DNA of 42,428 bases from Spirogloea muscicola (lineage: Eukaryota; Streptophyta; Zygnematophyceae; Spirogloeales; Spirogloeaceae). The notes under the pieces are model-generated. The model had not been told where the DNA came from. It did not search any database and saw nothing but the letters and a program-made list of their open reading frames with translations. Positions 5,201 to 35,928 of this stretch are shown here, piece by piece. Location of the stretch: contig WELB01000154.1 in assembly GCA_009602725.1 (NCBI GenBank), forward strand, positions 143,088-185,515. The letters run 5' to 3'. The translations under genes and the position numbers were made by a program. How positions within the stretch are numbered: position 1 is the first letter of the stretch; every line of letters starts with the position of its first letter.

Positions 5201-6425
5201 ACAATCTTGCTGTGAGGATCGATATCACAGCATTCCGTCTCGAGGTACAGTGCTCTCTTTCTCCTCTGCACATGGGATGGAAATGTACATCATGGGCAGT
5301 CAGATGCCAGTCAGGTAACTGTTTTCCCCAACCATGACGAGACTGTGGCTGCCAAGGGCTGGCCAAGGGCTGGACCCTGACAGGGACAGAACCCCTTGTG
5401 ATAGCAAGCTTGCTCAGAAGTGCCAATTCCTGTACAAGCAGGTCAGCTAAGAGAGCTCTTGACAGCACCTTGTATTGTCTCGTTATAGTGAGCACCGGGC
5501 AGATACTTCAATAGCCAATGCGCTGTGACAGCAGCAGCTGAGTTGTGCAGGCAACATGCTGCTCAGAGCTACAGGTCGAGCGTTCTTGCTTACACTCCAG
5601 AGCATGCGGCGCACTGGCTCCGCAATGCTCCGAGCTTCCACTGTGCCATTGGTCACGCTGGGAAGAAGGGGCGTGAAGACGAAGTAATTCCTCGGCGAAA
5701 TGATGGTGATGTCGTACAGGTCGGAGTTGATGGTCTTGAGGACCGAGATGGCGCCCCATCCAGAGCCCAGGATGATCATGCGCTTCTTGCGGGGAGCGGA
5801 GGCTGCTGCAGCGGCGGGATCCGCCTCTTTGCGAACCTGCTCGACCTCAGACGCGTCCTCGGGGTCGACGATACCAGAAGGAGGCGGCAGTTTCGCAGGC
5901 GCGTCGGCGAGCGCCACGGAGAGGCCCCCGTAGCCACTGCAGGAGAAGATGACGGAGAGCTTGATCAGAATGACCAGCCCACAGCATCGTCAGGTGAAGG
6001 CCGCTGCTGCGCGTGCTTTGACGGAGCTGCCCGCAGCAAGCTGCATAGGCGGACGCCTCTATCGAGCGGGGCCGCGCCTGGCAGCGAGGCCGAGTGCGAT
6101 CGGCGCGGCGGCGTAATGCTGCCAGGAGCGGCCGTGGCGGCCCTCGCCGAAGCTCGCGCCGCCCGGCCGTGAGCCTGGCCCCGCGCGAGCTCGCCCTGGA
6201 GCTACCTGCGGCGGCGAGCGATCCGGACGGATCAGCTGGTGCGACGGCCAAGCCAGGCTCAAGCGGACGGCGGCGCAGCAAAAGGGCCTGCAATATGGAG
6301 CGGCCGGCACGACGGGCCGGCGCGATCGCGGGCAGTACCGGCTGGAGGCGTGGCGCGGCCGTCGGCGAGGCGCGCTGCAGCCAGGCGCGCAGGAGGCGCG
6401 CGGCGGCGGCGGCGGCGGGGGTCAT
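2285..6425 (-). CDS. NDB: External-type (NDB-like) EF-hand NAD(P)H dehydrogenase, disrupted
   Basis: This is a type II, rotenone-insensitive NAD(P)H:quinone oxidoreductase, known in plants on the outer face of the inner mitochondrial membrane. Minus-strand exons: 5936-5596 ([17 protein letters not shown], first dinucleotide fold), 5252-5059, 4942-4692 ([17 protein letters not shown], second fold), 4412-4194 ([10 protein letters not shown]), 4050-3945 ([14 protein letters not shown]), 3733-3581 (canonical EF-hand loop [12 protein letters not shown]), about 3437-3299, 3128-3001, 2839-2720 ([18 protein letters not shown]) and 2372-2285 ([17 protein letters not shown]). The EF-hand insert marks the calcium-binding NDB subgroup. 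A leader exon from the ATG at 6425 is Arg/Ala-rich, like a mitochondrial presequence, but its splice to 5936 is unresolved. Two defects are seen: an in-frame TGA at 5199-5197, and a fifth C at 3977-3981 shifting frame just before GDCA. The joins 4194/4050 and 3581/3437 do not fit phase simply. It is either a recent pseudogene or a sequence with errors. Confidence 0.9.
3470..3570. repeat. Interstitial telomere-like repeats in an intron
   Basis: Perfect and degenerate CCCTAAA units (AACCCTAAACCCTAAACCC, then CCTTAACC, AAACCCTAA, GCCCTAAACC, ACCCTAAAT) fill most of the intron between the EF-hand exon (ends 3581) and the next exon (starts about 3437). The unit matches the plant/algal TTTAGGG telomere. 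Confidence 0.85.
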
Positions 6426-8525: not shown

Positions 8526-10008
8526 AGTGCATCCCGACCCCTTCACTGTAGCTGCATGCCAAGCAAGGCGACCGCCCTTAGCTCTAGCTGCCCCTGCTGC
8601 AGGATGGTTCAGGCAAGCAGTCTGTCTTACAACTGTCACGTTACAAGCTTGCTACTCTCACGAAAAGGTTCAAATATTGACATTCCCATTTGATATTTTG
8701 ACTTGCATGCTACCACGCATGCATTTTTTGCCGATGGCCACCCACGGGCCACCGATGGCCACTCTGAATGTCATAGCAGCCACCTCAGCGTACGGGATAC
8801 CTGCAAGCAAGGAAGATGAGCCTCCAGGAGGACAATGTTGCTCAAGGGCTGCACCAAAAGGAACATGGGTCCAGATATGTTGTGTGCTTCATTTCTGGTT
8901 CTTGCAGTCAAGTGAACCTCACTTCACAGAGATTTGCCTGCCCTTGCTAATTGCCAGTTGCAGATAAATCACCTCAAATGGCGCTCGCAGCTAAAGGCTA
9001 CAGGCGACAGCTGGAGAGCATTGAGGTGCAGTGTGCCACAACACACTGCCAAATTAGAGTGACATTTCATCTCGAGTGAAGACAATCGGAAAAACAGTTC
9101 TCCCCAGTTCATGCGCTGCGCAAACAGCCTGTCCCATACAGCTGCTCGACATTTGAGCTGCAGCAGAAGCTGCAAGCCAGGGCCCTTCTCTAGTACCTCA
9201 GCGCAATCAAGGCAGGGTAGGCCGAATCTTGGCCGCTAGGTTCTGCTTAAGCATGCTGGACAATCTGCTGGAAGGGGCATCATGCAGACAAGTAACATCG
9301 GATCAGAAAAACTAGCCCAACCAAGGATCATGCGCAGCTTTTCAATCTGAATCTGTTCAGGGTTTAGGGTTTAGGGTTTTAGCATTCCAGCCCTCTGCGG
9401 ACCGTCGACCTGCATACAAGACGGAGTTTGTGAGGTCCAGTTCACAGCAGCAGCTGGTGGCTCGCTTAACCACTACTCAGGGTTGTGCTCCACAAGGTGC
9501 AGAAGAGACATCTATTGCCTTTGCATGCTATAGGAACTTATGACGCCACCTTATGGCAAAAGCCAACGGGTGCCAGTCTCTAGAGGCCAATGCTTTTGGC
9601 AGCAGAGCTTTGCCAAGTTGAGGACACCGGACGAGCAATTTCATGGTGAAACGTCATAATTACCTCACAGTGTAAAACGCTGGACGCCCTTCTCCCTTCT
9701 CCTCCCATATGCATGATGGAGTCGCTAACCCAGCCGCCAACAAATGGCCGCCAGACAATAGGGTGGAGAAGCTCCTCTTTGAGTGCTCTGGCCTGTGTGC
9801 CTGCTTGATCAACCAAGAAAGGGGCAGAATCTAGGTTGAGGTCAGCTAGGGCATGGGCTTGCAGTGGTGGCCAACAGGCCAATAGATGGACAAAGACGCT
9901 GGAGCAACAATAGCTCCAAGCAGATTGTTACTACTACATACCAAGAGATAGGTCCTGCCCCCGAGTGGCACGCTCCTTCCAATCGGAACGGCGGCGACGG
10001 CCGGTCCG
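8526..10008. other. Intergenic region; no gene recognised
   Basis: About 1.5 kb between two convergent genes. It contains short direct repeats near 8731-8764 (CGATGGCCAC twice), a telomere-like run at 9359-9380, and otherwise unremarkable sequence. Minus-strand open stretches at 8969-9175 and 9580-9882 show no recognisable domain and are probably 3' UTR or chance. Confidence 0.5.
9359..9380. repeat. Interstitial telomere-like repeat
   Basis: Three consecutive TTTAGGG-type units (AGGGTTTAGGGTTTAGGGTT), preceded by a degenerate TTCAGGG unit. Orientation is G-rich on the plus strand, opposite to the run near 3470. Confidence 0.85.
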
Positions 10009-10731
10009 TCAGTAGCAGCACTCGCAGTCGAAGGGGCAGAGCTCGGTCCCGCCAGCGTAGGCCGCTCGGCTGCCCAACCGGAGCTCCTCCTCCCGGTATA
10101 TGGGCAGGCCGTCGGCAGTCCGCCGCCGCCCGGTGGTACCAGCACCAGCTCCAGACGGCGGCCCCTGCTGGAATCGCGCACGTTGGGTAGCCGTCCTTCT
10201 GCTGGCGGTCGGTGACTTACTGCTTGACGGCCTCGCCTTCTCGACCATCCTTCCCAGTGGGCCCTCTCGGCCCTCGCTGGCGATCGGTGGCGACGTTGAC
10301 GTCTTCGCCGTCGTGCTGTTGCTGCTGCGTCTCCTCTTTGCCAGCTCGAAGATGCTGTCGATGTCGCCGCCGCCGCGTCTGCCAGGAGCAGCCACGCCGG
10401 CGGCAGGTCCGGTGCTGGGCGGAGCTACTTCTGCCTCTGCCGCTCCGGCAGCACCCGGCTCCGCCGTCGTTGCCGTCGTCGTCGCCGTCGCCGCCACCGT
10501 CCTCCTCACCCCATCTCCGGAGGCCCGCTTCCCGTTCTCCTCATTCTTGCCGGCCAGCCTCAGCTTCTTCTTGCCCACGCTGCCCGCAGCCTTCCCAGGC
10601 TCCTCCTCGCCTCGGCTCGGCCGCGCCGTCCCTCTGCCCGCCCCGCTCAGCGCCTCTGCCAGGCCCCGCTGCGCATCACCTGCCGCGGGGACCCCAAGCC
10701 GCTCCCTCCGCTTCCGGCTTGCTGGCGCCAT
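10009..10731 (-). CDS. DUF1764-family protein
   Basis: Single exon of 240 codons from ATG at 10731 to TGA ending at 10009. The C-terminus carries the family signature: RRRTADGLPIYREEELRLG, then TELCPFDCECCY, matching the known pattern of a Y..EEL.LG motif followed by CPFDCxCC. An earlier GGGDIDSIFELAKRRR matches the conserved DIDDIF region. The central part is Ala, Ser and basic-rich and probably disordered. Function is unknown; the terminal cysteines may bind metal and the basic stretches suggest nuclear or nucleolar location (inference). It is divergent from the ligand-gated channel gene, with about 400-530 bases between start codons. Confidence 0.85.
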   Translation of the reverse strand: MAPASRKRRERLGVPAAGDAQRGLAEALSGAGRGTARPSRGEEEPGKAAGSVGKKKLRLAGKNEENGKRASGDGVRRTVAATATTTATTAEPGAAGAAEAEVAPPSTGPAAGVAAPGRRGGGDIDSIFELAKRRRSSNSTTAKTSTSPPIASEGREGPLGRMVEKARPSSSKSPTASRRTATQRARFQQGPPSGAGAGTTGRRRTADGLPIYREEELRLGSRAAYAGGTELCPFDCECCY

Positions 10732-11261
10732 GGCGCCCTTTGCGCACGCTGCCCAACTTGGAGGGCTGCTGGTAAAATAGGTTTCAGAATAACGGGAGGG
10801 TTAGTCAGAATCCAGGCGCCGCTGTCAATTAGACGCTCCGTTGACCGAAAACGACGGGAAATGCCAACTCGTTAAACAGAGTGCCAACGACGCCAATTGC
10901 CTCGATGGTTTCTCCCCGCACGTGGGTTGCCGGCGGGCGCGGCGGCGGGCGCGGCGACGGCGGCGGCGACGGCGGCGGCGGCGGAGCTCGAGCTCCGGAG
11001 CTCGCGCGGGAACTCGTCAACGGCGGCCCTCGTCCTCCCTCCTCTGNAGCTGCCCGCGAGTTGCGGCGAGACGCGCGCCGGACGCGCCGGCCGGCGTGAT
11101 CTGAGGGCGCTGGGCGGAGTCCGAGCATGGCCGCCGAGGCTGCGGCGCCGGGCCGGAGCGGCGGCGTCCTCCTCGGCACGCCGGAGCTCTTGAGGCCTCA
11201 ACCGCCGGAGCGCACAGGGCCGCCGCGGCGTCGACGACGGGCGGCGGGCGGCGCACCGCCG

Positions 11262-14200
11262 ATGTGGCTGGCGCTGCTGGCCGCGCTGCTGCCGTCGCTG
11301 CTGCTGCTGCTGGGACGCCGGGCGGACGCGCAGATGCTGCAGCCGTTTGCGGGGCAGGGCACGCCGCCGGCCGGCACGCAGGCGCACCCCGTCTTCGTCA
11401 GCGTCTTCCTCGAGCGCTTGCTCCACGTCAACGGTGCGCTCTTGGCCACTTCCCTACGTCCCGAGCGTGTACAGCGAGCTGGGAGCCAAGCCCGTCTTTG
11501 CGCCAGTTCTGGTCATTGTTGTTTAAGCGGGGGGGGCTTGGACGTGCATGGCATAGTAGAGGGCTCCCGACGTCACTGGACGGCCTTTCCGTCAAGATTG
11601 CTAGCAGCCGGCCAAATGCAGCTCGATCGACGGTGTCAGGGGTCCTCTTGCTGGACCAGCTGGCCCCGAGCCTCCGGCTGTGCTGGGACGTGCCGCTTCT
11701 CTTGAGAGTCATGGCAGGTCTTGCGTGAGGAGGACGAGTATAGCTGGCAACTGAGCAGAAGTGTATTAACAGAGTAAATTTCGCTCAACTCATCCTTCAT
11801 CCCATGCTTCCAAGGAGGTGACTTGCTCGCTGGCTGGCAGATGTGAGCTACAGCTTCGAGGCCATTTTCTATATGGTGCTCTCGTGGTCCGATTCACGAG
11901 GTTGGTGTACCACTCATCATTAGCCTCCCTTTAGAGAGCCTTGATGCTGTTGGAAGTACCCAGGTCGCACATGCATACTGTCCAGCAGGTCCTCCTGGAT
12001 GCTTGGCTGCTGTGCAGCACCACTGCCCTTCTGTTGTGCTGGATGCCGGCTTAGCTAGCGTGTCTGCTAGGAGTTGCCAACGCAGCTTTCGCAAACAGAT
12101 GTTTGCGGTGGACCTTCAATTTGCTGCAAATGCTTGGCAACTCATAGTCCAAGTCCACCACCTTCTACATTAGAGCAGCCTGGTCAATGATGTTCTGAAA
12201 TCGCGACTGTGCGAGAATTGCCAGCACCAGCAGAGCTTGCTCGCAGAACTGCTGAAGTGGAAGCTGGAGGGAAAGCTTGTAGAAGGTTCTGTGGACAGGA
12301 CTTTGCACCTTGCTGCGACACCGTGTGGCTGCCTGGAACGAGCATTCGCAACATAATTGAGCTGCCACAGGGCCGCGTGGAAACAGGTAATTACTTCAGT
12401 TTGTCTTAGGCAGGCTGAGCACCTTCACAGTGCTCTGCTTTTGCTCTGCTCCTCCTTGTTTGGACTTGTAGGCAGGTGTGGCAGGGGTGGCAGGTCGATG
12501 CTTTGCTGTTCCGTTGATCTCTGTGCAATATAATTCCAATTTTCCAATTTCTACCTACTCGACAGGATACATGCATGACAGGCTTCAATTGTTAAGATCT
12601 GGACTTCCAATTAAACGGGCTTGTCCAACATGACGTGCTTTAATGAAGTCTTGTCCTCTGTAACTGACATACAGAGGGGATCAGCCTTGGTGGTCGCGGC
12701 AATGATTCTTTGTCCTGGGAGAAGAGGATTCATGGTACTTATGTCATGGGCTTGGAGCTAGAAGTACTGTAGTGCTGGCATCTGGCAGGTGCCACTGTTC
12801 TATGGATGCTCTGGTTGTCAGAGCAATGCCTGCTATTGCTGGCATGTGGAGCCTTCAATGCTGTCGTACATCTCTTTGTATGGGCATCTTAGGGCCTGTG
12901 CTTCAATTCTGAATGAGCAGAGTCGAGCTTGTGACAGGTGTTTTCTACACGGACTACTCTTTCAAAGCTTTTCCTTATGACAAGCAGGTGGGAGCACTAA
13001 TGTTACAACAAAGGATGCTTGCTTGTCAAGCTTGATGTGCTGCAGTCTGTAAGATCTGGAGTCAGCATGGAAGCGCAAGGTCACTGGGGCAGACAACCCT
13101 TGAGTAAGTTTGGAGGCTTTGTCCATCTTGAACCTGCCAATTATTCTTGCAGAGCCTCATTGTATATGTGACGCTGGACGTACTGCCGGTGGGGTCGCTG
13201 CATGGGAGCTCCACTGCCACCAGGTTTGGGCTTTCCCACAGCAATGCCACAGCGTGGACGCGACACTATGATGAGCTCAGCGGGTGGTCCGTCAAGGCGC
13301 TCAGATTTACATTGGAAACTCTGGACAACCAGGTTTTCACCAAGTTTGCGACCAAGCCCAATCCAGGTAGTTCAGTTACATTCTGAGGAAGATTGTGGCC
13401 TCCTTGCAATGTATTGTGAGTACTGTGTTATGCGGTCCTTGTACCGAAGACACACAGGGCTACTGCTGGCAGACCACGATGTTCACTCACGGCCAGCATA
13501 TATATCTCAGCTGTGAAAATCTTATAAATGGTGATGAGCATTAGCTCTGATTGCGAAATATCTCATTTTGCAGCTGACCCATACCCTTATGGTCCCGGGA
13601 ATGCAAGTCAACCAGGAATACAATTTTCACACGATGTTCTAGTCCTTGAGATTCAAGTGAGGATGCTTCACAACACTGGCCAGTTACAATGTTGGGAGTA
13701 GAGATGCTGTCAATAGAAACTCTGGGGGACTTGCAATGCGTTTGGAGTGATTCGAAGACTTTGCCAAGCTGAATAACAAGAAAACTTCTTTTAACACATG
13801 GCAGGTTGAGCGACTATCAACATACTACTTCTGGAGTGTAAGATATTCTTGACCCTGATGACACAGTGATGGTTGCAGTAAAAGCTTAGGCTACAGCTGT
13901 ACATGCTGGGCGCTGGTGCAAGTGGCCTCAGCAGGTCGCTTGGACCGGGGGGAGAGAAGATGGCTAGCAGATGGTCATATCTTGGCTTTTTGTAATGGCC
14001 ATATCAACAGCCACCATCCTTGAATATGCTGCGTAACGACTGTGTCCGACGGCTGTGTCTGTGCTGCAGATGCTCTTCCCCCTCTTTCTGACCACCATGC
14101 TATCGTGGGTCACCTTCTGCATCCATCCCGAGGAGCTCGCAGCTCGCCTAGGGACTTCGGTTACATTTTTCTTAGCCCTCACTGCTCTCCAGTTTGTCAT

Positions 14201-15471
14201 TGATGGGCAGGTGCACACTTCCTCTCCTGCTGCAATTGATGACTTGCTTCATAGTCAGGACATCGGGAAGAGTATTGGTTGCGCCTGGCTGAGATGCCCC
14301 GCTGTTAGTTGGCTATGGTCCTTGCAATTGCATTGCGATTCTTTTGCAACCCTTGTTCCTGATCCTTACTGCTTCTGCCAACTTGCAGCTGCCAAGCTCG
14401 TCATATCTCACGACTTTGCATTTACTTATCCTGATAAGTACGGCTAGTGTGCTACCTCCTCTTGCTAATTGTTGTGATTAAGTTGCTTACTTCACAACTC
14501 CATTTGGACTTAGGTTTCCTGCTACAAAAAGAGGTCGTTTGGCCTGCTTAGGCTCAAATGATGGTGGCTGCCCAAATTGTTTGGCCGTGGAGCTATATAG
14601 TACAAGCTCAGCACTTGCGCTCATTGCCTGCCGGCCAAAGCTTCAGCCATAGTGGCTCGCTCATGTGCAGGTTATATTGCCATCTCAGTGGGGACCTGCG
14701 AGAGTGTGCTTGTCTTTGCCCTGTGGAACAAGGTGATGCCCATCCTTCAGTTGCGGACATTCCGCATGCATAGCGCGTACTTACAAGATACTTACTGTGT
14801 CCTACCTGAAAGTCCTCATTTGTGGTCCATTGCTCCAGCCAAGACGAAGTGCCAATGAAATTCGCGAGTTGTCTGATGAGGGCACAGAAGTGCATCTGCA
14901 TTGGCAATTTGACCTGTCTTTGCACAATCTGACAGGATCTGGAAATTTGCTGCTTAAGTAATACGCTTTCCTCTTACTTTGACTACAGTATGTCCGGGCA
15001 AGGGCAAAGAAGGTGGACGAGGAAGACCGGGCGGGTCTAAGCGGCCCGAGCCTTGCAGCACTCAAGGGGCTGGGCTCAGGCAGCTCAAGCGGGGCAAGTA
15101 AGCAGAGCTTCCAGGAAGTGCCTACAGACGATTGTAACAATACAAAGCAGGAGCAAGGTGCAGTAGACTCCGTTGCAGCCGCCGAAGGAGCACAGCCTGG
15201 TCCTCCTTATGGCAAAGTCAAGTGCCATGCCAAGCCTCCACTCCGGCGACGCTCGCTGGTGCACACGCTGGCAAAGACGGCATCCTTGGCCCCAGTGCGC
15301 GTCGTGCAGGGGGCGATCAGCAGGTCACTTAGTTGGTCGCGATGGCGCAGCTGGCGCAACATGGAGGAGGCCTCAAGGGCCACCTACAGACTTGACCTGG
15401 TCTTCCTTCTCGTCTTGCCCGTGGCCTATATCATTAGCTCTTGGATCATAATCCGTTCAAGCAAACACTGA
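11262..15471 (+). CDS. Pentameric ligand-gated ion channel (Cys-loop receptor superfamily)
   Basis: Twelve exons join in phase: 11262-11433, 11841-11900, 12231-12386, 12675-12734, 12938-12987, 13153-13366, 13574-13656, 13805-13837, 14070-14210, 14389-14437, 14671-14732 and 14989-15471, giving 520 residues. A signal peptide (MWLALLAALLPSLLLLLG, cleavage near ADA/Q) leads to a ligand-binding domain: VFVSVFLERLLHVND, SFEAIFYMVLSWSD, a Cys cluster at 94/98/105/106, DTVWLP, then FKAFPYDKQ at about 158-166. Helices: M1 LFPLFLTTMLSWVTFCI, M2 ARLGTSVTFFLALTALQFVI with Leu at 9', M3 from LPSSSYLTT onward, a 130-residue intracellular loop, and M4 YRLDLVFLLVLPVAYIISSW. Both canonical Cys-loop cysteines are absent. 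No Glu sits at -1' (Ala-Ala-Arg), closer to anion-type pores. An in-frame ATG at 11127 would add 45 Arg-rich residues; 11262 is preferred because it starts the signal peptide. Ligand unknown. Confidence 0.93.
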
Positions 15472-15658
15472 ATGTCTTATTTAACAGATAACTGACTTCC
15501 GCTCCTTCACTGCACCATCGGTTGGCATGCATTCATGCCGTTCCTATGAGGAGCTAAAGCTATCAGTAGAAAGTACATCCGCAGCTCGGCACACAGCTTG
15601 CTTGTCTCTGGCAGCTGTAGTGTGTCATAGACTTTGTGGCATGGGGCCTGGGCGGGGG
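15472..15658. other. 3' flank of channel gene
   Basis: About 190 bases between the channel stop codon and the next LINE fragment, presumably 3' UTR. No further exon is seen. Confidence 0.4.
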
Positions 15659-18288: not shown

Positions 18289-20593
<2,305 letters not shown>

Positions 20594-20645
20594 GGCGGCA
20601 GCTGCGGCGGCGGCGGCAGCGGCGGCGGCGGCGGCGGCGGCGAGG
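20594..20645. repeat. GCC/GGC trinucleotide repeat in tubulin 5' UTR
   Basis: Interrupted (GGC)n on the plus strand, immediately upstream of the alpha-tubulin start codon. A comparable tract precedes copy 2 at 34560-34595. It may affect transcription or translation, or simply reflect the GC-rich promoter. Confidence 0.8.
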
Positions 20646-31802: not shown

Positions 31803-34496
<2,694 letters not shown>

Positions 34497-34559
34497 CTCG
34501 GCGACGGGAAACGCTGAGAGGAGGGCGGAGGGAAGCGACGCTCTCCTGCCGGCAGCGCC

Positions 34560-35160: not shown

Positions 35161-35283
35161 CAACGCCGTACTGAGACAGGAGAAGGCGCGCGGGCGCATG
35201 GAAAGGGAGGCCAAGGCAAGCCAATGCATTGTTCAAGCAGAAAGACAGAGAGAAAGGTGCGCGGTGCGCGTGAGTTGAAAGGA

Positions 35284-35928
35284 AGCGCGGCCAGATTGAC
35301 TGGTGGCTAGGAAAGGCCAGCCCAAAGAAGTGGACAACGTCTGAAGGAGCCGGAGTGCGAAAGGACTAGGACTAAGACATCAGCCAGGGAACGCTCCGTA
35401 ACCTCTAGTCAGGAGTTAAAAGAAGCGCGGCCAGATTGACTGGTGGCTGGGAAAGGCCAGCCCAAAGGAATGGACAAGGTCTGAGGGAGCCTGAGTTGAA
35501 AGGGGAGCTCTTCCAAAGAAGAAAGCGCGGCCAGATTGACTGGTGGCTGGGAAAGGCCAGCCCAAATGAATGGACAAGGTCTGAGGGAGCTTGAGTGCAA
35601 AGAAGAGGAGAAAGACTCCTTTGACGATATTCTCTTTGAAGACTCTTCTGCCTCAACAATGCATGTTTGGCTTGAATCGGCCTCCCTTGTATTTCCATGC
35701 GCACCGCGTGCCTGCATTCCAATAGAGAAGGGGGGGAGGGCTGTGAAAAGCTAGCCCAGAAAATATGGGCAAGGTACTGAGAGGAAGAAAGAAAGCGCGG
35801 CCAGATTGACTGGTGGCTGGGAAAGGCCAGCCCAAAGGAATGGACAAGGTCTGACAGTGCTCGCCCATTGAGGATAGGGGCTGGAAAAGCCAGCCCAAAA
35901 AAGAGTGGGCCCCGCTTTGATTTTTTTT
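35284..35928 (-). mobile_element. Nest of LINE 3' tails
   Basis: Four copies of a block reading GGCCAGATTGACTGGTGGCT followed by GGAAAGGCCAGCCCA occur at about 35291, 35431, 35530 and 35801, plus one family-type tail at 35862-35905. Each is a minus-strand LINE 3' end (stem-loop GGCTGGCC...CCAGCC). The first retains part of an ORF end near 35390-35410 with the stop TGA changed to GGA. The spacing suggests repeated insertion of 5'-truncated copies into earlier tails. Confidence 0.7.

Follow-up and report, generated by a model that had tools for sequence, protein, structure and literature searches.

The window, a 42,428-nucleotide stretch of a contig of the streptophyte alga Spirogloea muscicola, contains a gene that very probably encodes a Cys-less (Pro-loop) pentameric ligand-gated ion channel (pLGIC) subunit, a degree of confidence that applies to channel identity and not to selectivity. 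The gene spans 11127–15471 (+) and comprises 11 exons and 10 introns; all 10 introns are bounded by GT...AG with consistent phases, and the 11262–15471 part forms a complete frame of 502 residues followed by a stop codon (Table 1). The spliced frame, a match to the transmembrane (TM) profile of neurotransmitter-gated channels, matches to solved structures, and a spliced alignment with a paralogue from the same genome all bear out the original prediction that the exons within 11262–15471 read in phase into a pLGIC. The 12 exons and 11 introns proposed there are replaced by 11 and 10, with the GT–AG boundaries conserved in both homeologous copies (contigs C62 and C23).

Table 1. Features of the pLGIC gene, with positions in the window.
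Feature	Position	Strand	Description
5' extension of exon 1	11127..11261	+	Probable start: ATG in frame; 45 codons rich in Ala, Gly, Pro, and Arg, with RRRRRAAGGAPP at the end
Exon 1 from the start proposed earlier	11262..11433	+	Hydrophobic signal segment and beginning of extracellular domain (ECD)
Exon 2	11841..11900	+	ECD strand with WSDSR; the paralogue has introns at the same two flanking positions
Exon 3	12225..12386	+	Cys-cluster stretch and WLPG motif; alternative start 12231
Four-cysteine cluster C-x3-C-x6-CC	12278..12316	+	Residues 96, 100, 107, and 108 of the 502-aa model; Cys invariant relative to the paralogue
Exon 4	12938..12987	+	beta6–beta7 Pro loop; FPYD at 12970–12981 (motif as in Table 1 of PMC4795631)
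Exon 5	13153..13366	+	ECD; GW (W193) and sequon NAT
Exon 6	13574..13656	+	Expected loop C region; sequon NAS
Exon 7	13805..13837	+	Pre-M1 Arg R250 at 13811–13813; beginning of M1
Exon 8	14070..14210	+	Remainder of M1, and M2; paralogue exon of equal length
M2 landmarks in exon 8	Filter A-2' A-1' R0' 14139–14147; L9' 14172–14174	+	
Exon 9	14389..14437	+	M2–M3 linker (LPSSSY) and beginning of M3
Exon 10	14671..14732	+	Remainder of M3
Exon 11	14989..15471	+	Cytoplasmic loop, M4 (about 15388–15456), stop

Of the two Pfam profiles for the family, PF02932 (neurotransmitter-gated channel TM domain) matches the window protein (E 3.3e-11; 44.3 bits; cut-off 28.1), and PF02931 (ligand-binding domain) does not match it even at E 10. 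The ECD stretch of ELIC alone aligns with the window protein (19.9 bits, E 0.002). A PDB search with the window protein matched 247 distinct sequences with E of 10 or below; among the best 60 of these, ELIC-type chains lead from 8.4e-14, aligning over an ECD stretch (41–152) and a TM stretch (237–328), with GABA-A rho1 (6e-8) and glycine receptor (1.2e-6) chains further down. The top chain, 5hew, is labeled GABA receptor beta-1 in its file, but its sequence as printed is almost that of 2yn6, which is named ELIC. A profile of three algal sequences again placed ELIC-type chains first (best 60 of 213 distinct sequences, E up to 0.001); an M3 piece on its own had no matches in PDB. The spliced protein has all the parts originally described, namely a hydrophobic N-terminus, an extracellular domain (with two sequons, NAT and NAS), M1–M3, a cytoplasmic loop of ~130 residues, and M4. 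Hydropathy peaks correspond to the signal segment, M1, M3, and M4; M2 falls below the 1.6 threshold and was placed by alignment to ELIC M2, giving four TM helices after the extracellular domain.

Among the most conserved residues of the superfamily, as listed in Table 1 of PMC4795631, F143, P144, D146, R250, P262, and P307 are present in the window protein, and W193 was assigned by eye. R0' (R284) and L9' (L293) are present in M2, and R250, P262, P307, R284, and L293 are invariant across the window protein, the C23 copy, and the paralogue. The F/YPxD motif with its invariant Pro at the beta6–beta7 tip reads FPYD in the window and C62 proteins and FPFD in the C23 copy and paralogue; the FPYD loop of the window protein reads FYTDYSFKAFPYDKQSL. 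Cys-loop cysteines are absent, with no Cys between residues 109 and 274 of the 502-aa model; judged by the spacing of the animal loop, the two positions are presumably T136 and L150. A Cys-loop receptor in the strict sense, with two Cys bounding a 13-residue loop, is thus rejected, both cysteines being missing, and because the FPYD loop has no Cys the protein belongs to the Cys-less 'Pro-loop' type. Four cysteines sit directly before a WxPG motif in the window protein and its paralogue. Exon-level matches to the chlorophyll a/b-binding family number 68 in the genome, which marks the organism as a photosynthetic eukaryote; the claim of a full-length pLGIC in such an organism is therefore upheld, and its description as a strict Cys-loop receptor is not.

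The exon structure was examined with a purpose-written spliced protein-to-DNA aligner, which returned the same ten introns when queried with the gene's own 502-aa protein, a circular exercise that checks only the program. Aligned to window positions 10900–15600, the paralogue protein scored 386.7, which is more than chance given the controls: 40 first-order Markov random sequences (mean 43.9, maximum 62.3), the reverse strand (41.1), and the reversed query (45.0). By itself the paralogue query proposed 11 introns and recovered exactly 6 of the 10 introns of the window model; it differed by an extra exon (11986–12084), by boundaries placed differently near exons 5 and 6, and by an exon 10 donor 15 bases earlier, so that the exon 6 boundaries and the exon 10 donor of the model were not recovered with this query. 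The extra exon is unsupported, because the preceding AG is absent in both homeologs, GC follows it in all three copies, its length differs between copies, and its frame is interrupted by a stop in both homeologs. For exon 3, 12225 and 12231 are alternative possible starts: in all three copies each site is preceded by CAG, the phase is maintained with either, and the resulting proteins differ by two residues.

Translation probably starts at 11127, giving a protein of 547 aa, and not at 11262 as originally proposed, because both homeologous copies have a Leu codon in place of the ATG at 11262. The window has an ATG in frame at 11127, as does C62 at the corresponding site; C23 has an assembly gap there. 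The 135-bp extension has no indels and no stops between the window and C62. Selection lends it no support: dN/dS across 11127–11261 is 0.77, 0.93, and 0.88 in the three copy pairs, without visible frame-specific constraint, and for the window–C62 pair the value in one wrong frame is lower still (0.61). The Arg-rich end of the extension, lying ahead of the hydrophobic segment, could be the n-region of a long signal peptide; a plastid or mitochondrial signal is also possible.

The window gene occurs on at least three contigs (C154, which contains the window, C62, and C23) of the 153 Mb, 471-contig assembly, which was searched for copies exon by exon, with counts that are lower bounds. The C62 and C23 copies have GT–AG at 10 of 10 introns and identical exon lengths, except for 6 additional nt in C62 exon 1, and none of the three copies has an internal stop across the 502–504 codons modeled. 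The gene is under purifying selection. Over 502 codons, the window and C62 copies differ by dS 0.14 and dN 0.037 (dN/dS 0.26), and overall dN/dS is 0.34 for window vs. C23 and 0.38 for C62 vs. C23; between window and C62, identity is 0.86–0.98 in exons and 0.75–0.92 in introns. For M1–M3, dN/dS is only 0.06–0.11 in the three copy pairs, and in the 30 codons of M2 all differences (4, 2, and 2) are synonymous. In the region of the Cys cluster dN/dS is 0.9 to 2.2, on only 4 to 8 differences, and in the cytoplasmic loop it reaches 1.07 (C62 vs. C23). The channel core is thus conserved, with looser constraint on the Cys-cluster region and the loop.

Each of the two pLGIC genes is found on three contigs, as are two tubulin exons from the window, and pLGIC dS is 0.07–0.14. 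Judging by this three-contig occurrence, the assembly of 153 Mb appears to represent a genome of ~50 Mb present as three haplotypes or subgenomes, or else a mixture of strains. The tubulin genes are a tandem pair (18324–20599 and 31841–34502; 13.5–13.9 kb apart; 79–92% identical over six matched blocks), alpha by our own reading, with PF00091 matching the exon at 33850–34329. Gene order is only partly conserved, since in C62 the pLGIC gene has the second tubulin copy on its other side. Elsewhere in the window, a DUF1764 gene (10012–10800, reverse strand; PF08576, E 5.7e-19) is arranged head to head with the pLGIC gene at a distance of 0.3–0.4 kb, and an open stretch at 5486–5989 (reverse strand) has a weak match to pyridine nucleotide-disulphide oxidoreductases (PF07992, E 0.0014, below cut-off). 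An 85-base repeat in four copies (35283–35877) is dispersed in the genome, with at least 42 matches (40 of 580 first-look candidates having been scored), many of them identical over 74 bases, and is possibly a short transposable element.

A second pLGIC gene is present on at least three contigs (C42, C171, and C8). The C42 copy has 12 exons and encodes 541 residues with 34% identity to the window protein; as a draft model it matches PF02932 (3.8e-10) and also PF02931 (1.3e-6, over cut-off). In this paralogue, eight of the 10 introns of the window gene recur with identical alignment column and phase, which supports both gene models and suggests that the common ancestor was rich in introns; the paralogue lacks two introns of the window gene and has three others. 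Both proteins have a C-x3-C-x6/7-CC cluster, and in the paralogue the stretch from the WxDxR strand to that cluster is longer by 43 residues. The paralogue's M2 is the same length as that of the window protein and reads E-2' L-1' R0', with N2'. All 12 exons are open in the C42 and C171 copies. In C8, exon 1 is 151 nt rather than the 152 nt of the others, and translation as it stands leaves the frame. Decayed fragments of a further copy, resembling the second pLGIC, adjoin the paralogue (L031, about 1461–2694, with a stop in M4; L032, about 9699–9843 on the reverse strand); pseudogenes of the pLGIC family therefore exist in this genome. These fragments, together with the exon 1 length change in one of three paralogue copies, might suggest that the window gene is likewise decaying or unexpressed, a reading made highly improbable by the open frames and kept splice sites of its three copies and by the low dN/dS of M1–M3.

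The window protein might also have an accessory role, conducting only within a heteromeric receptor that it forms with the paralogue. This would be compatible with the other readings and would accord with the presence of two pLGIC genes, each on three contigs, with their equal M2 length, common Cys cluster, and common introns, and with the ligand-binding-domain cut-off being passed only by the (draft) paralogue. We consider such a role unlikely, as GLIC and ELIC, which are prokaryotic Cys-less channels, function as homomers.

With regard to ion selectivity, the window filter A-2' A-1' R0' agrees with the metazoan anion motif A[R/K] at -1'/0' and not with GE[K/R]. The order within M2 is E-5' E-4' L A A R ... 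D19', and acids at 19' and -4'/-5' are more usual in cation channels. Given A-A-R at -2' to 0', we give an anionic current about an even chance and rank it over a cationic one. The latter reading, of a pLGIC that is a cation channel, possibly proton-gated and GLIC-like, in which the D19' ring and the -4'/-5' acids set the preference over a neutral A-A background, is conceivable but doubtful: the acids themselves favor it, as does the nearest solved relative by sequence, which is ELIC-type and cation-selective, but the window protein lacks the Glu that ELIC has at the position of A-1' and that the paralogue has at -2', and it matches the metazoan anion motif. According to an extract of PMC4795631, the anion motif at this M2 position is not sufficient to predict selectivity in protists, a warning that adds to the case for a cation channel; because of it, and because D19' points the other way, selectivity is the weakest step of the mechanism proposed here. 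The M2–M3 tyrosine of animal anion channels is present in the window protein and the paralogue in our own alignment, and does not track selectivity in protists according to an extract of a preprint (PMC13232294).

From family membership, a ligand-gated current in the alga is a fair inference; as originally stated, the sequence does not reveal the ligand. By the proposed mechanism, the hydrophobic N-terminus would take the subunit into the ER, where the ECD sequons NAT and NAS may be used, and five subunits, of this gene alone or together with those of the paralogue, would form a ring around M2. A ligand binding at the interfaces between extracellular domains would move the FPYD loop against the M2–M3 linker (P307, Y311), with D146 of FPYD expected to pair with the pre-M1 R250, and the gate at the 9' Leu would open. 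Chloride efflux depolarizes the algal plasma membrane, and if the current were anionic, opening would have this effect. Of this scheme, the sequence itself shows the complete frame, the homology, the conserved motifs, and the purifying selection; pentamer formation, gating, location, and selectivity are what we infer.

The window protein can be compared with three groups of known channels. It has the F/YPxD loop without flanking Cys, as well as the pre-M1 Arg, M1 Pro, M2–M3 Pro, R0', and L9', of the Cys-less Pro-loop receptors of unicellular eukaryotes, a likeness drawn from descriptions in an extract of PMC4795631 and not from sequence comparison. With ELIC it shares an alignable ECD and M1–M3, RLxTSxT in M2, the Cys-less loop, and the M2–M3 linker Tyr; unlike ELIC, it has A-1' in place of Glu, an M1–M2 link two residues longer, the four-cysteine cluster, the ~130-aa cytoplasmic loop, and 10 introns. 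The TM region of the window protein can be aligned with that of animal GABA-A rho and glycine receptors, and its A-R at -1'/0' is as in the metazoan anion motif, but it lacks the Cys-loop cysteines, and no ligand-binding residues were recognized in it. The animal anion-channel motif furthermore has Pro at -2', which is likewise missing from the window protein.

Wider searches yielded one prokaryotic relative and no named eukaryotes. On the S. muscicola genome itself, the ligand-binding profile had no match, which carries no information because the positive control was also silent, and the TM profile had three weak exon matches, none over cut-off. A scan of viral contigs limited to two short peptide patterns matched 84 stretches, with no confirmed relatives; a pattern scan of genome contigs matched 60, one of which (L036, from an Anaerolineae MAG) encodes a relative with 22% identity in the best segment. 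The bacterial pLGIC frame (L036:2107–4059) encodes 650 aa from a TTG start, the channel part being preceded by roughly 300 residues. Of 400 genomes sampled from the same phylum, one had a PF02931 match, namely that of L036 itself; since the control was positive in 0 of 14 genomes, silence in the other sampled genomes is no proof of absence. The TM-domain piece had no match among plasmids. A literature search by title and the start of the abstract, with subscription journals mostly outside it, found no functional study of a green algal pLGIC among the papers listed.

As far as an extract of Jaiteh et al. (2016; PMC4795631) goes, pLGICs have been reported in Chlorophyta and most protist pLGICs are Cys-less. 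The window gene is therefore not the first of its sort: green-algal pLGIC genes have been on record since 2016, and it is a further member, well supported and accompanied by an informative paralogue. Of the whole finding, the pair of paralogues is of greatest interest. We suggest, tentatively and with some doubt, that S. muscicola keeps two old, intron-matched pLGIC paralogues with diverged filters, an anion-type A-A-R and a cation-type E-L-R, both stabilized by a four-cysteine cluster that replaces the Cys-loop disulfide. The pair offers a direct test of charge-selectivity divergence within one alga, as well as of whether another cysteine cluster can replace the Cys-loop disulfide in folding. 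If the suggestion is true, the alga would have an opposed, excitatory/inhibitory-like pair of receptors without a nervous system.
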